From NCBI GenBank assembly GCA_029932585.1, contig JAOZPU010000010.1, forward strand, positions 1 through 39,433: 39,433 nucleotides of DNA, read 5' to 3'. Of this stretch, positions 1,239-8,691 are shown one piece after another; the first letter of the stretch is position 1; each line of letters starts with the position of its first letter. Both the position numbers and the translations under genes were made by a program. Under the pieces are notes generated by a model. The model was not told the DNA's origin and searched no databases. It was given only the letters and a program-made list of their open reading frames with translations. The DNA is from Spirochaetia bacterium. Its GTDB lineage: Bacteria; Spirochaetota; Spirochaetia; B11-G9.

Positions 1239-3734
1239 TTATGATTCAATTTTTGTTTTTATTTCAATAGTTTTAGGTTTACTTATTGAAAAATAGATTT
1301 TCTCTTTTCGTAGGCTGGTTTTAATTCTGCTTCCATTTGGGCATTTACCTTGCAAAATTTGTAAAGACAAAGGATCTTCTATCTCTTTCTGAATTGCTCT
1401 TCTTAGGGGTCTTGCACCAAATTTAACATCATAACCAGTATCTATAATGTATTCCTTTACTGAGCTTGTAATATCAATCATAATATTCATTTGAAGGAGT
1501 CGCATTTTTAATTCTACTAATAATACTTCTAAAATTTCTTTTAAATTATCTCTGGAAAGACTCTCAAAAACAATTATTTCATCAACTCTGTTAATAAATT
1601 CTGGTCTGAATTTTCTTTTTAATTCATTTAATGCGGATGCTTTTATCTCAGAATAATGAAGTATACCTTCCTGAGATTTGAATCCTAATGCACTATCACG
1701 GGTAATTTCTCTTGCACCTGCATTTGAAGTCATAATAAGTACAGTATTTCGGAAAGAGACCTTATGTCCTAAATTATCCTGAAGTTCTCCCTCTTCCAGA
1801 ACCTGAAGCAATAAATTAAAAACATCTGGATGTGCTTTTTCTATTTCATCTAATAAAATAACACTATATGGCTTACGTCGTATTTTCTCAGTTAGCAAAC
1901 CTCCCTCTTCATACCCCACATAACCTGGAGGAGCTCCTACAAGGCGACTTATATTATGTTTTTCCATAAAATCTGACATATCAATTCTAATAAGAGCATC
2001 AGTATTACCAAAAAGAAACTCTGCAAGAGTTTTTGCCAATAACGTCTTACCGACTCCTGTAGGGCCTAAAAAAATAAATGAGCCCATAGGCCTATCTGGA
2101 GAAGATAATCCGGTTCTTGATCTCCTGATACTGGATGATATAGCATTAATTGCTTCATTCTGACCAATAACAGTTTTGTGTAATTCTGCTTCCGTTTCAA
2201 GCAATTTATCAGATTCTTTTTGAACTATACGTGCTAAAGGTATTCCTGTTATTCCGGAAATTACATTTTCGATATCAGTAACTTCAACTGGAACTCGATT
2301 TTTACTTTTATTTATTTTCCAACCCTTGTTAAATTCATCAATTTTTGATTTTAGATCTCTAACTTTATCTCTTACTGCTGCAGCTTTTTCATAATCCTGA
2401 TTACTAACTAAATTCTTTTTTTCCTGTGTTAAAATATCAATTTCATGTTCAAGTGTTTTTAATCCATCAGGTCTTATTGCATTTTCAATTCTTTTTACAG
2501 AACCGGCTTCATCTATAAGATCGATTGCTTTATCAGGTAAAAAGCGATCAGAAATATATCTATCTGACATTACAGCTGCAACCCGTAAAGATTCTTTTGA
2601 ATAGTTTACATTATGATGCTCTTCATATCTACCAATAATACCTTCAAGTATTTCCATTGTTTCTTCTATACCAGGCTCATCTACAAAAATTGTTTGGAAT
2701 CTTCTTTCCAGGGCAGCATCCTTCTCAATATACTTCCTGTATTCACGTAGAGTGGTTGCACCAATACATTGTAACTCACCTCTGGATAAAGCAGGTTTTA
2801 ACATATTTGAAGCATCTATAGCTCCTTCAGCACCTCCAGCACCAATTATAGTATGAAGTTCATCAATAAATAAAATAATATTCCCGGCGGTTCTAATTTC
2901 ATTCATAACTTTTTTTAAACGCTCTTCAAATTCCCCACGATATTTAGTTCCAGCAATTAATGAAGCAATATCAAGTGTAAGAACTCGTTTACCTGATAAC
3001 AGATCAGGTCCCTCTCCGGAAATTATAATCTGTGCAAGTCCCTCTGCTATAGCTGTTTTCCCTACCCCTGGTTCACCGATTAATACAGGATTATTTTTGG
3101 TTCTTCTAGCCAGTATTTGTATAACACGTTTTAGTTCTTCTTTCCGTCCAATAACAGGATCCAGTTTATTTAATCGTGCATATTCTGTAAGATCTCTTGC
3201 ATATTGATCGATAGTAGGTGTTCCCTTAGAGTGGTTGACCTGCTGTTTTTTATTTGCTGACTGTAGGGGAATATTTTTATTTCTCCCAGGAGGGTTTAAT
3301 TTTCTAAGACTAATAATTGAACTCTTTATTTCTTCACTGCCAATATTATGTTTAAGTAAAAATCTTTGAACAATACTTCCTGTTTCCATAACAGATGCAA
3401 GTAAAAGATGTTCTGTACCTATATACTGAATACCCATTTTCCTTGCTTCTTCTGCTGAATTTTCAAGAATATTTTTACCTCTATGAGAAGGAGGAACATC
3501 ACCGAGGATATAACCTGAATGTTTTTTTGGAATACTTTTTTCAATTTCTATCTGAAGTGAATTAGGATCTATATTTAAAGATTTTAAAACTTTGAAACCG
3601 AGACCATCACCATCTTTTAATAGTGCTAAAATTATATGTTCAGGTAAAAGTTGATCTGAATGAAATCTTTTTGCTTCTTCCTGGGCAAAAATAGTTAAAA
3701 TGCGTTGAGCACGTTGTGTAAGTCCTTTAAACAT
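1239..3734 (-). CDS. clpC: ClpC-type AAA+ chaperone/unfoldase
   Basis: This is the hexameric unfoldase that feeds substrates to ClpP (clpP is not in this window). At 831 residues it has the usual ClpC length. In order it contains two N-terminal Clp repeats (about 1-145), the first AAA+ domain with Walker A GEPGVGKT (220-227), Walker B LFIDE (288-292) and pore loop KYRG (264-267), a middle coiled coil with a UVR motif (about 441-466), then the second AAA+ domain with Walker A GPTGVGKT (557-564), pore loop GYVG (604-607), Walker B LLDE (627-630) and the [11 protein letters not shown] sensor region. The UVR-bearing middle domain identifies ClpC rather than ClpB. It starts 14 bases after mcsB, as in the Firmicutes ctsR-mcsA-mcsB-clpC operon. 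All ATPase residues I checked are intact. Confidence 0.97.
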
Positions 3735-3748
3735 ATGATGCCTCCATT

Positions 3749-4798
3749 TTAATTCGAAATATTCAATGATTCACGAATAATTTTTGATCTACTTTCATCC
3801 AGTAGTACGTTATCTATTTTTTTATCAACAATTGCAAACTGTATATGTGCTTTTTGAGACATTATAATTAGAGAATCTACTATACCTATATCAAAATCTG
3901 AAAATCCTAAAGCAATTCCAAGTCTTAAATCTGTAAGTGCTTTTATAGCCTCTCCTGAGCCTAATAATCTACAATTTGAAATTAAGCCTATAGATCTATA
4001 CATTCTATCTTCGATCTCTATTTTTCTTCTTTCAATTAGTTCATCCCGGGCTTGTCTTTCAAAAGTAGCTAATTTTAAACTTGTTTGAGAAAGCTTTTCA
4101 ATAAGTTCCTTTTCATCAGCACCTATTGCTATCCCATTTGATATTTGATAAAGATCACCAAGAGAACCATCCTCATTGCCCAAAAACCCTTTTACAGTAA
4201 ATTCCTTTTCTAATGAAGATTTTATAGCTCGGTCAAATAAAGATAATCTAACCAGTGCAGGTAAATGAACCATTACAGAAACTTTCATACCTGTTCCTGA
4301 ATTTCTTATATTCTCATTTAAATAGCCAAATTCCAGAGAAACTGCAAAATCAAGTATTTTTTCAAGCTTTGATTCCAACAAATCAATTGTATTATATGCA
4401 TATTTCAATCCCAATCCACTTTCAAAAACTGACATTCGTAGATGATCATGTTCATTAATCATACATGCTACTCTCTGATCTTTGCTTAAAATAAAAGATT
4501 TGTGTTTGTCCAATGTAAAATCCTGGGATATAAGACTTCTTTCTGCTAACATTCTCCTTTCAATACTGCTTATATCTGCAAGAGAAATAATATTCATACT
4601 TTGATCTATCATGCCAAAAGCTTCTGATATTAGAATTTTAACCTTATCTTCATCCCGAATTTCCATTTTATTAGGGAAAAGAAAACCAGTTAAATTTCTT
4701 GAGAGTCGAACCCTACTTGATAATACAACATCATTTTCCTTACCTTTAGTTCTAAACCAACCTGGAATATCGTTTAGAACTGGATTATTAATTGTCAT
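3749..4798 (-). CDS. mcsB: McsB-family protein arginine kinase homologue, probably active-site degenerate
   Basis: McsB phosphorylates arginines to mark proteins for ClpC and belongs to the phosphagen kinase fold. The 349 residues align along the whole family: LSSRVRLSRN (26-35), the NEEDH region (here NEHDH, 115-119), GTGMKVSVMVHLPALV (168-183), YQISN (217-221) and SNCRLL (274-279). Several residues essential in characterised McsB or arginine kinases differ here. The second Glu of NEEDH is His117. The conserved Cys of the SCPTNVGTG segment is Asn163. The Arg of RASV is Lys172. The Arg of VRG is Lys203. The GEGSEA loop reads GNEDGS. In the C-terminal phosphoarginine-sensing RDxxRA motif the first Arg is Leu. 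These comparisons rest on the Bacillus sequence recalled from memory. The gene overlaps mcsA by 11 bases. Family assignment is firm; kinase activity is doubtful. Confidence 0.9.
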   Translation of the reverse strand: MTINNPVLNDIPGWFRTKGKENDVVLSSRVRLSRNLTGFLFPNKMEIRDEDKVKILISEAFGMIDQSMNIISLADISSIERRMLAERSLISQDFTLDKHKSFILSKDQRVACMINEHDHLRMSVFESGLGLKYAYNTIDLLESKLEKILDFAVSLEFGYLNENIRNSGTGMKVSVMVHLPALVRLSLFDRAIKSSLEKEFTVKGFLGNEDGSLGDLYQISNGIAIGADEKELIEKLSQTSLKLATFERQARDELIERRKIEIEDRMYRSIGLISNCRLLGSGEAIKALTDLRLGIALGFSDFDIGIVDSLIIMSQKAHIQFAIVDKKIDNVLLDESRSKIIRESLNISN

Positions 4799-5303
4799 CT
4801 AAATTAAATCCTGCTTCAAGATTTGTTAATTTATCTCTTAATACCACTGCATTTTCATATTCTTCATTATCAACAGCCTCTTCAAGTTCTCTCTTTAAAA
4901 TTTCTTTATCTATCAAAATTGTTTTATATGCTTTTAGTTTTGAAGGTAATTTACCTACATGAGCTACATAAGTTCCATTTAAAGAAATTACATTAGCAAT
5001 AGAACTTCGGAAATAATTATAACAATCAGGACACCCAACCTGGCCATCTTCTTTCATATCCGCAACTTTTGTCCCGCAAGTTTTGCAAGTCTCTTGCTCA
5101 GTACCTGTTTTTACTGGTAAAACTTTCTTTTGAGCAAAATTACTAAGTAATTTTGATAGTGAAAAATCAAAGGATTTTCCATCTTTAGATATCCCTTTCT
5201 TTGCCGCACAATCCCGGCACAGGTGCATTTCATATAGATTTTCACCAATTAGCTGTTGAACATGAAAAACAGCTGACTTATTTTTACATATTTCACAAAT
5301 CAT
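4788..5303 (-). CDS. mcsA: McsA-like zinc protein with UVR motif
   Basis: McsA activates the McsB kinase and bridges it to ClpC. The 171-residue protein has four CxxC pairs (C3/C6, C29/C32, C73/C76, C91/C94), as expected for the two zinc modules of McsA. A C-terminal helical UVR motif follows (about 132-166, around NEEYENAVVLRDKL), like the one in the ClpC middle domain. The ATG at 5303 follows AAGGA. It is the first gene of mcsA-mcsB-clpC-rnz and overlaps mcsB by 11 bases. No ctsR repressor gene precedes it, unlike the Firmicutes arrangement; lolE lies upstream instead. All zinc ligands are intact, in contrast to the degenerate partner kinase. It may act as a ClpC adaptor on its own. Confidence 0.9.
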   Translation of the reverse strand: MICEICKNKSAVFHVQQLIGENLYEMHLCRDCAAKKGISKDGKSFDFSLSKLLSNFAQKKVLPVKTGTEQETCKTCGTKVADMKEDGQVGCPDCYNYFRSSIANVISLNGTYVAHVGKLPSKLKAYKTILIDKEILKRELEEAVDNEEYENAVVLRDKLTNLEAGFNLDDN

Positions 5304-5418: not shown

Positions 5419-6726
5419 TTAATGTTTTCGCAGTATATCCATAGGTTTAAACCTACCAGCCTTTACAGCTGGGAAAAAAGCAGCAGCAACAGAAAGAAGT
5501 ACAGTTAAAGTGGAAATAATTAAAATATTTATCAAATCCAGTTTTATAGGAATTTGCTCTAAATAATATGAAGTATCAAAAATAACAAAATTTTTATCGG
5601 ATAATAATAAAACAGGTGATAATATATATTGAAAAACAGTGTATGAGAAATTAACTATCCTTTCTATTATTAAAATTAACTCATTTATATTTACTGCAGT
5701 AAGTAATCCCAAAACTAATCCTGAAATTGTTCCAAGAATGCCCATAATAAACCCAATAAGGATAAAAGCTCTTGTTATAATATACGAGGGAACCCCTGTG
5801 CTTTTTAACATTGCAATATCTTCTTCTTTTTCCATTACAAGCATAACTACAGCAGATGATATATTCATAGCCGCTACTATTACAATAACTATCATAATAA
5901 AAAGGAGTATGTCCTTTGTTGTTTTGAAGCTTTCTATCATGGTTTTTTCAAGATCATACCAGTTATATACGTAAAATTTTGTATTAAGAGCTTTTCTAAC
6001 TTCAATTGTTTTACTTTCAATATTTTCAAAAGGGTTATTAATTTTTACTGCAATAAAATTATTACCTTTTTCAGTAAATAAAGCTTTCCCTTTATCAATA
6101 TTTATATAAATACTTAGGGCATCTAATTCATAATATCCAGTAGAAAAAATACCTTTTACAGTTAAATATGATGGTTTTAGTACTGGACGTCTTCCAGGTA
6201 TTTGTTTTGCTGTTAGAATTTTAATTCTATCTCCTGGGTTTACATCTAAAATACGTGCTACTTCTAAACTCAACATTGCAGAGTCTTTGCTATTAAGAAG
6301 AAACTCTCCTTTTTCAATTTTAATGTAATCTTTAGCCGTAGGATCCAGATCAAAATAATTCGATGGTAAAGCTTTGAAACTTATCCCTGTTCTTCCATTT
6401 TCTGAATATGCCAGTCCTATTCCCGTGGTTACAGGAAAAGCTGATTGGATTCCCGGTAATGACTTAATAATTTCAATAGTATTTTTTTCAGTATATTCAT
6501 CAATAGTATTATTACTTTTTATTTGAATATGATATGAACCTATTTCCATATAACGCTGGGTTATACCTTCAATCATACCACTGGATATCTCTAATACAAC
6601 TATTAATGGAATTAAAGAAAATCCTATTCCCAGAATAGCGCCAAAAATATTTTTAGTAAAAAAATATTTCTTTTTATTTACCAAAAAATGATATGCAAGA
6701 TAAAAAGATCGGTCATAGATCATCAT
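5419..6726 (-). CDS. lolE: lipoprotein-releasing ABC transporter permease, LolC/LolE family (second copy)
   Basis: This is an inner-membrane permease of the MacB/FtsX superfamily that extracts lipoproteins from the inner membrane for transport to the outer membrane. The 435 residues have the family topology: one transmembrane helix near 27-50, a large periplasmic domain (about 50-265), then three helices near 272-296, 318-346 and 396-420. The C-terminal AAAFFPAVKAGRFKPMDILR segment is typical. It overlaps lolD by 4 bases (ATGA), so it is translationally coupled. Which of the two permeases corresponds to LolC and which to LolE is not certain from sequence alone. Confidence 0.85.
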   Translation of the reverse strand: MMIYDRSFYLAYHFLVNKKKYFFTKNIFGAILGIGFSLIPLIVVLEISSGMIEGITQRYMEIGSYHIQIKSNNTIDEYTEKNTIEIIKSLPGIQSAFPVTTGIGLAYSENGRTGISFKALPSNYFDLDPTAKDYIKIEKGEFLLNSKDSAMLSLEVARILDVNPGDRIKILTAKQIPGRRPVLKPSYLTVKGIFSTGYYELDALSIYINIDKGKALFTEKGNNFIAVKINNPFENIESKTIEVRKALNTKFYVYNWYDLEKTMIESFKTTKDILLFIMIVIVIVAAMNISSAVVMLVMEKEEDIAMLKSTGVPSYIITRAFILIGFIMGILGTISGLVLGLLTAVNINELILIIERIVNFSYTVFQYILSPVLLLSDKNFVIFDTSYYLEQIPIKLDLINILIISTLTVLLSVAAAFFPAVKAGRFKPMDILRKH

Positions 6727-7397
6727 AGGTTTGATAATTTCCCATTTTCCAGTTTAAGATGAATATCTCCTCTGCCAGTTAATGCCATATCATGAGTTAC
6801 TAATAACAAAGTTTTACCATGGTTATTAACAAGTTCAAATAATAATTCTTCTATCTTTTTAGAATTTTTTTGATCCAGATTCCCAGTTGGTTCATCTGCA
6901 AGTATAATACCAGGATCATTTATCAGAGATCTTACAACAGCAATTCTTTGACGTTCCCCACCGGATAATTGTGAGGGGAAATGCTCTAATCTGTCAATAA
7001 GACCAACTTCTCTTATTAATTCGGTTGCTTTTGTAATAGCTTTACTTTTACTCATACCTGACATATACCCTGGAAGCATAACATTTTCCAATGCTGTAAA
7101 ATCCTTTAAAAGATAATGAAATTGGAAAATTAATCCTATGCTTTTTGACCTAAATTCTGACATTGAATTTTCATCTAATTTATGAACAGCTTTATTATCA
7201 ACAAAAATAGATCCACTTGTCAATTTATCCATTCCAGAAATTAAGTTTAACAAAGTACTTTTCCCACTTCCACTATTTCCAGTAAGAATTACCTTTGTAT
7301 TAGATTCGATAGATAAATTAAGATCAGAAATAATTGATAATTCTTCATTACCATTCTTATATGATTTATATAATTGTTCAATAATTATATTACTCAT
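6723..7397 (-). CDS. lolD: lipoprotein-releasing ABC transporter ATPase
   Basis: This is the ATPase that powers the two adjacent permeases. The 224 residues contain Walker A GNSGSGKS (40-47), a Q-loop (FQFHYLL, near 91-97), the ABC signature LSGGERQ (144-150), Walker B ILADEP (165-170) followed by TGNLD, and the switch His of LLVTHD near 201. Length and motifs match the LolD/MacB ATPase group. It overlaps the upstream permease by 8 bases and the downstream one by 4. Placement between two FtsX-type permeases of about 434 residues supports the Lol assignment over a MacB or FtsE one. Confidence 0.92.
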   Translation of the reverse strand: MSNIIIEQLYKSYKNGNEELSIISDLNLSIESNTKVILTGNSGSGKSTLLNLISGMDKLTSGSIFVDNKAVHKLDENSMSEFRSKSIGLIFQFHYLLKDFTALENVMLPGYMSGMSKSKAITKATELIREVGLIDRLEHFPSQLSGGERQRIAVVRSLINDPGIILADEPTGNLDQKNSKKIEELLFELVNNHGKTLLLVTHDMALTGRGDIHLKLENGKLSNL

Positions 7398-8691
7398 ATC
7401 GGAGCACCTCCGCAGGTTTATATTTAGAAACTACTTTTGAAGCCGAATAAGCTGCTAAAGTAGATGATAATACAGCAAAAAGAAAGACAAATAAAATTTC
7501 ATTAAAAACTATTTTTACGGGAATCTCTGAAACATAAAAATTTGTAAACGAAAAAACAGAAGAATAATTAAAATTTGTACTAATAAAGGGTGATATTATC
7601 AATTTAATTAAATCTTCACTAAAACTAACAATGGATTCCAGTCCATTGAAAATAAGATTAATATTTATTGTTAGCAATAATCCGGAAATAAGACCAAAAA
7701 ATGAACCTAAGATTCCAATAACAAACCCTTCAATTATAAAAATAGTACGTATTGATAAAGGGGTAGCTCCCAAAGACATTAGAACACCAATTTCTTCCCT
7801 CTTTTCTACTACAGAACGTTCTAATGAGTGTTTAATATTTACTCCAACTACTATAAAAATTAATCCAATAACAAGCATCATTGCTGTCTTTTCAGTTCGA
7901 AGCGCTCCGAAAAATGATGAATTAAAGACTCTCCAACTCTGAATATCATAAATTCCACCAAGTTCTTCTTCAATTTTAAATGTAATAGCTTTATCGTTGT
8001 ATTGATCTTTTAGTTTAATTCCATAAATTAATTTTTCTTTTCCTGAAGAAATTGTTTGTGAGTTTGATAAAATAGTAAACCCCATTGATCTGTCAAAATT
8101 ATAATAACCACTTTGAAATAGACCGGAAATATTATAATTACGATCTGAAGGTGATAAAGATTTAAAACCTGAACCTTCCATAGAAATCAAGGAAATATTA
8201 TCATTTACACTAACTCCCAGCCGAGCAGCCAATTGATTTCCTAAAAGTATAGAATCCTTATTTCTCAAAGTTAATTCACCACTAACCAGATTCAATTGTT
8301 TCGCCATTACAGGATCATAATCTGCAATATCACCAGGTATTAATCGTATATTTACAGCTTCAAAATCTGAAAAATTACCCTTTATTAAAGTTTGTATATC
8401 AATAAACGGAAGAACAGATTCAACACCATCTATATTCTCTAAATAATTTAATATATCAGAATCTATAGTGGATTCTTTGCTATATACACGTATATGAAAT
8501 GAATTTATATTTATAATATCTTCAATAAATCCAAATTGGAAACCATTCATTACCCCTAAAACAGATATTAGTGCCATTACACCAATACCAATACCTGCAA
8601 TAGACAAAAATGAAGGACCTAACATTCGATCGGCTTTTCTTGCTTTTAAGTATCGAAAAGCAGTGAAAAATATCCAGTTATTTCCTCTCAT
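7390..8691 (-). CDS. lolC: lipoprotein-releasing ABC transporter permease, LolC/LolE family (first copy)
   Basis: This is an inner-membrane permease paralogous to the gene at 5419-6726. The 433 residues show one N-terminal helix (about 27-50, after an RYLKARKADRM amphipathic start typical of LolC/E), a periplasmic domain (about 50-265), and helices near 270-287, 315-345 and 392-412. The end SASKVVSKYKPAEVLRYE is the family signature. It overlaps lolD by 8 bases and the upstream secreted-protein gene by 4. Two distinct permeases suggest a heteromeric LolCDE rather than a LolF homodimer. Confidence 0.86.
   Translation of the reverse strand: MRGNNWIFFTAFRYLKARKADRMLGPSFLSIAGIGIGVMALISVLGVMNGFQFGFIEDIININSFHIRVYSKESTIDSDILNYLENIDGVESVLPFIDIQTLIKGNFSDFEAVNIRLIPGDIADYDPVMAKQLNLVSGELTLRNKDSILLGNQLAARLGVSVNDNISLISMEGSGFKSLSPSDRNYNISGLFQSGYYNFDRSMGFTILSNSQTISSGKEKLIYGIKLKDQYNDKAITFKIEEELGGIYDIQSWRVFNSSFFGALRTEKTAMMLVIGLIFIVVGVNIKHSLERSVVEKREEIGVLMSLGATPLSIRTIFIIEGFVIGILGSFFGLISGLLLTININLIFNGLESIVSFSEDLIKLIISPFISTNFNYSSVFSFTNFYVSEIPVKIVFNEILFVFLFAVLSSTLAAYSASKVVSKYKPAEVLRYE

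Follow-up and report, generated by a model that had tools for sequence, protein, structure and literature searches.

The window, the 39,433-nucleotide stretch of DNA analysed here, belongs to a 3.19-Mb draft genome (92% complete) and carries a homologue of mcsB placed between mcsA and clpC (Table 1). The initial annotation had given the coordinates of mcsB correctly and had left its coding strand, the minus strand, unstated. The clpC gene begins 14 bp downstream of mcsB. The predicted McsA protein has four CxxC pairs (CEIC, CRDC, CKTC, and CPDC), corresponding to two zinc sites, and a C-terminal UVR motif, which identify it as McsA even though its NF053706 score is below the cut-off of 210. 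The gene order and these cysteine pairs confirmed that both the operon and the McsA zinc sites are intact, as had been claimed. The adjacency of mcsA, mcsB, and clpC extends through most of the phylum, and both this adjacency and the McsA zinc cysteines are found in degenerate and canonical lineages alike. A LolCDE-like ABC trio lies directly upstream of the cluster and is conserved in most genomes of the class, and RNase Z follows clpC in several families.

Table 1. Genes and McsB residues discussed in the text, with their positions in the window (BsMcsB, McsB of Bacillus subtilis)
Feature	Positions	Strand	Description and basis
clpC	1239..3734	(-)	831 aa; Clp_N, AAA1, M-domain with UVR, AAA2, D2-small
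mcsB homologue	3749..4798	(-)	349 aa; predicted pseudokinase; NF002194, PF00217, PDB McsB matches, AF2 model
mcsA	4788..5303	(-)	171 aa; overlaps mcsB start; NF053706 98.5 bits, PF02151
LolCDE-like ABC trio	5419..8691		permease, ATPase, permease
Arg29, Arg31, Arg34	4697..4714	(-)	SSRVRLSRN motif, kept; alignment and codon
His117	4448..4450	(-)	BsMcsB E121 position (NEEDH reads NEHDH; arginine kinase Glu225); alignment, codon CAT
Asn163	4310..4312	(-)	BsMcsB C167 position (arginine kinase Cys271); alignment and codon
Lys172	4283..4285	(-)	BsMcsB R176 position; alignment and codon
Lys203	4190..4192	(-)	BsMcsB R207 position; alignment and codon
Lid loop 207-212	4163..4180	(-)	GNEDGS replacing GEGSEA; Asn208 = E212 (arginine kinase Glu314); alignment and codon
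Remnant of pArg receptor motif RDxxR	3788..3802	(-)	Leu333 (R337 lost); Asp334 (D338) and Arg337 (R341) kept; alignment and codon

The claim that the protein aligns along the full length of McsB was corroborated by the match to NF002194, which covers profile positions 4–342 of 345 (E=6e-85), and by the closest PDB sequences, which are the McsB proteins of B. subtilis, G. stearothermophilus, and S. aureus, with E-values down to 7e-58. Every NCBIfam equivalog cut-off for McsB was missed in the profile search, with scores of 285 bits for NF002194 (curated cut-off 385) and 255 bits for NF053707 (cut-off 500); the PF00217 domain scored 143.6 bits. The AlphaFold2 model made from 30 related sequences (pLDDT 89.5, pTM 0.88) superposes with a TM-score of 0.93 on McsB (6fh3_A) and of about 0.6 on arginine kinases, and the McsB fold of the window protein is predicted to be intact. 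The end-to-end homology and the fold, comprising the phosphotransferase and dimerisation domains, place the protein in the McsB homology family, as does the position of its gene between mcsA and clpC.

Despite this membership, the residues that characterise a protein-arginine kinase are replaced: E121, C167, E212, R176, and R207 of BsMcsB correspond to H, N, N, K, and K in the window. The NEEDH, CPTN, RASVM, VRG, and GEGSEA motifs of Bacillus and Geobacillus McsB aligned without any gap, which rules out a misalignment in which the glutamates and the cysteine are merely shifted. The substitutions named in the initial annotation (His117, Asn163, Lys172, Lys203, and the GNEDGS loop) all proved right when checked at the codon level, and their origin by chance or assembly error could be ruled out because congeneric genomes have the same state. 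R125 and H123 (B. subtilis numbering) are also retained. The counterparts of E121, C167, and E212 in arginine kinase are Glu225, Cys271, and Glu314, which keep the guanidinium of the substrate in place (PMC11075012). In B. subtilis, McsB phosphorylation is no longer detectable with any one of the substitutions R176K, R207K, and R337K (PMC7235348). R337 contacts the phosphate of phosphoarginine (pArg) in the pocket defined for B. subtilis McsB (PMC8370763); the receptor motif R337-D338-x-x-R341 reads L-D-x-x-R in the window McsB.

We extracted McsB from 187 of the 242 genomes of the phylum with a McsB match, and compared these sequences with an outgroup of 80, consisting of 78 loci from Bacillota, Planctomycetota, Omnitrophota, and Verrucomicrobiota and two PDB sequences. 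Outside the phylum, E121, R207, and E212 are present in 80/80 sequences, C167 in 77/80, and R176 in 79/80, the last position having been fixed to K or R by the outgroup scan pattern, which left the other four catalytic positions unconstrained. The named near relatives of the window's genome are Spirochaetaceae and Spirochaetales metagenome genomes. Within the window's class, C167 is retained in 0/92, E121 in 17/91, R176 in 8/92, R207 in 12/92, and E212 in 7/90, and retention stays at 99–100% at G162, G172, E251, R34 (89/90), and R341 (92/92). R337 is found in 0/92 sequences of the class and in 2/179 across the phylum; it is gone also from spirochaete McsBs with an intact catalytic site. For 61 positions that are at least 95% invariant elsewhere, the mean retention in the class is 0.10 at the five catalytic positions versus 0.63 at the other 56, and when five of the 61 positions were drawn at random 100,000 times, 17 draws were equally low. 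Because of this difference in retention, we conclude that the erosion is targeted to the catalytic site and is not general. The initial annotation was right that the protein is unusual, but its framing as a single case was too narrow, as the same degeneration is found throughout the class.

All five catalytic residues are kept in only two of the 187 genomes, G012 (f32) and G036 (f41), which represent one genome each on sister branches. Thirty genomes keep both E121 and C167, often with an altered R207 or E212. The class alignment contains no newly shared catalytic residue, and the only gained positions are V24, F129, and F155. McsB has degenerated further in f24, f29, f34, and f42 (L058-L064, L211, L214), where the lid loop is short or absent and several members also have R29, R31, and R125 replaced. 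A separate variation on the Bacillota side was seen in gut Clostridiales (L114, L138, L154), with Tyr at the C167 position and the other motifs complete.

In a careful tree of 75 sequences, from which the active-site columns had been taken out, the class sequences form one clade (support 97/92), the spirochaetes keeping C167 form a separate clade (100/100), and f32 together with f41 form a third (100/100). On this tree, C167 needs at least five changes. A larger quick tree including long branches gave the same picture with weaker support. We read the degenerate McsB as a condition that the spirochaete class as a whole has inherited, rather than as a recent accident. The Nei-Gojobori dN/dS between the window and its nearest congener is 0.14, a rough value with dS above 1, and the ratios are 0.17 for another congeneric pair and 0.05–0.29 for other degenerate pairs. 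The reading frames of mcsB are intact in nearly all of the 187 genomes. The earlier view that the protein is under selection, which here is purifying, is upheld by the ratios of 0.14–0.17 within the genus, by the intact fold, and by the state common to the whole class.

We also looked for the other parts of the phosphoarginine system. The window's genome contains two ClpP genes and only one phosphagen-kinase gene; a second, active McsB paralogue was sought and none was found in it. CtsR is absent from 393/393 phylum genomes searched, and neither CtsR nor a YwlE-type phosphatase was found in the window's draft genome (92% complete), an absence that the phylum-wide picture supports. The McsB-YwlE-CtsR regulatory system of pArg is, as such, not found in this genome. 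Low-molecular-weight phosphatases (LMW-PTPs) are steered to phosphoarginine by Thr at P-loop position 5 (PMC8001253), and those of the window's genome have CMGNVCRS, not CTGNTCRS, and an ArsC-type loop. A DNA pattern encoding C-x-G-N-T-C-R matched 24 of the 393 genomes and lay within a phosphatase reading frame only in G012, G036, and G141. The G141 protein was rejected as arsenate-reductase-like (ArsC-type), and the other matches (f5 and others) were rejected as lying outside LMW-PTP reading frames. A YwlE-type phosphatase occurs, then, only in the two genomes with the complete catalytic site; because these two are sisters, the co-occurrence represents one evolutionary event, not two.

The N-domain alignment indicates that the window ClpC keeps the glutamates matching E32 and E106 of both pArg sites, which is a counter-point to a pArg-free reading of the locus. 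These glutamates do not imply pArg, because the same pockets are also used in the resting state of ClpC (PMC12583610). In four f9 genomes (G149, G238, G266, and G318; L051, L052, L081, and L082), ClpC has no N-terminal domain, starts just before AAA1, is about 660–685 codons long, and adjoins a retained mcsA-mcsB pair. Docking of pArg at that domain is therefore impossible in these lineages, and the N-domain of ClpC cannot be the partner of McsA-McsB in every lineage. In S. aureus, McsA uses its zinc finger to place the McsB catalytic cysteine (review PMC12467219); in the window, the McsA zinc finger is kept and the McsB catalytic cysteine is gone.

We consider that McsB of this class is a pseudokinase, probably kept together with McsA to serve ClpC/ClpP as an adaptor or regulator without enzymatic activity, and we give this reading a probability of roughly two in three, based on the sequences and on analogy with B. 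subtilis. Missing from the window McsB are the carboxylates that bind arginine, the cysteine of the catalytic site, and two arginines contacting the ATP phosphates, and no useful rate of arginine phosphorylation would be expected from it. With the McsB fold, the place beside McsA in the operon, and conserved residues of the dimerisation domain all kept, McsB would bind McsA and client proteins and would bring the clients to ClpC or relieve the ClpC resting state, resembling the kinase-independent activity of the C167S variant of BsMcsB. This variant is kinase-dead, yet it has a milder effect on MgsR stability than deletion, which its authors took as a kinase-independent adaptor function of BsMcsB (PMC7235348). 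A pseudokinase acting as a ClpC adaptor was among the initial suggestions. The pseudokinase half is well supported by the replacement of five catalytic positions, whereas we infer the adaptor half by analogy, because of the operon position and the B. subtilis precedent; the inactivity of the window McsB and its binding to McsA and ClpC are likewise presumed.

The retained R29, R31, R34, and R125, together with H123, could mean that ATP still binds, and the protein might be a slow or altered kinase in which the kept arginines and the lysines hold ATP, His117 or acids close by take the place of the glutamates, and the target is arginine or another residue. Arginine kinase mutants at the equivalent Glu and Cys are reportedly able to keep partial activity (Pruett 2003; Gattis 2004), and some phylum members with NEEDH and the Cys have Lys at both R176 and R207, so that Lys might be tolerated there. 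However, R176K and R207K each abolish the activity of BsMcsB (PMC7235348), R125 is lost in 4/7 family members, and the class has not settled on any new residue at the site. Congeners do not even share the same substitutions, with E121 replaced by H, N, or Q and C167 by N or K within the genus, and this speaks against a new active site that is conserved. The idea of a kinase with different chemistry, raised in the initial annotation, is disfavoured by this variation in spite of the kept arginines, and we regard it as unlikely.

Even less probable is a phosphoarginine reader, also proposed at the outset, which would not write the mark but use its C-terminal pocket to bind pArg proteins that a different kinase has produced and pass them to ClpC. 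D338 and R341 are kept, the latter throughout the class, and so are the pArg-site glutamates of ClpC, but R341 may be structural or contact McsA, and the genome has neither a second phosphagen kinase nor a YwlE-type phosphatase or CtsR that we could find. The idea is weaker because the receptor arginine R337, a Leu in the window, is gone from the class and from nearly all of the phylum. The locus might finally hold a decaying gene that is expressed without function. The congener G394 (L043) has an mcsB whose frame can be read except for a single in-frame TAA that interrupts it, the congener G395 (89% complete) has no McsB match, possibly reflecting in both cases recent gene loss or a draft-assembly error, and some spirochaete families are likewise without a McsB match. 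Such decay is very improbable in view of the low dN/dS ratios, the nearly universal intact frames, the conserved operon, and the residues that are still invariant across the class.

The putative pseudokinase adaptor can be compared with several known systems. It shares with the McsB kinases of B. subtilis, G. stearothermophilus, and S. aureus the fold including the dimerisation domain, the placing with mcsA and clpC, and R29, R31, R34, R125, H123, and R341, but differs from them in the replacement of E121, C167, R176, R207, E212, and R337, in scores below the equivalog cut-offs, and in a genome where no CtsR or YwlE-type phosphatase was found. Like the BsMcsB C167S mutant (PMC7235348), it has no catalytic cysteine and is expected to be kinase-dead; unlike the mutant, it is natural and far more extensively altered, and its adaptor activity is putative. 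The PF00217 catalytic-domain fold is common to phosphagen kinases such as arginine and creatine kinase, whereas the window McsB is without the N-terminal phosphagen-kinase domain and has the equivalents of Glu225, Cys271, Glu314, Arg280, and Arg309 replaced. Bacterial Ser/Thr pseudokinases (PMC12599244) are similarly conserved proteins with a degraded active site, but their fold is unrelated to the phosphagen-kinase type of the window McsB, which is tied to a protease operon. We found no description of a McsB pseudokinase from spirochaetes in the literature covered, which mostly excluded subscription papers, so that an earlier mention is possible.

In summary, we lean slightly towards the view that the whole spirochaete class has turned McsA-McsB from an arginine-kinase module into a ClpC adaptor that works without phosphorylation and possibly without nucleotide, giving a family of pseudokinases with the phosphagen-kinase fold, and that the phylum presents the stages from a full site with YwlE (f32, f41) through NEEDH and Cys without YwlE to complete loss. 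Such lineages would form a natural series of stages in losing a post-translational modification. An annotation of mcsB or 'protein arginine kinase' in a spirochaete genome should not be taken to show arginine phosphorylation. In B. subtilis, it is difficult to tell what McsB does as a kinase from what it does as an adaptor, and a lineage in which the chemistry has been removed and McsB, McsA, and ClpC have been kept would make the role of McsB without phosphorylation directly testable.
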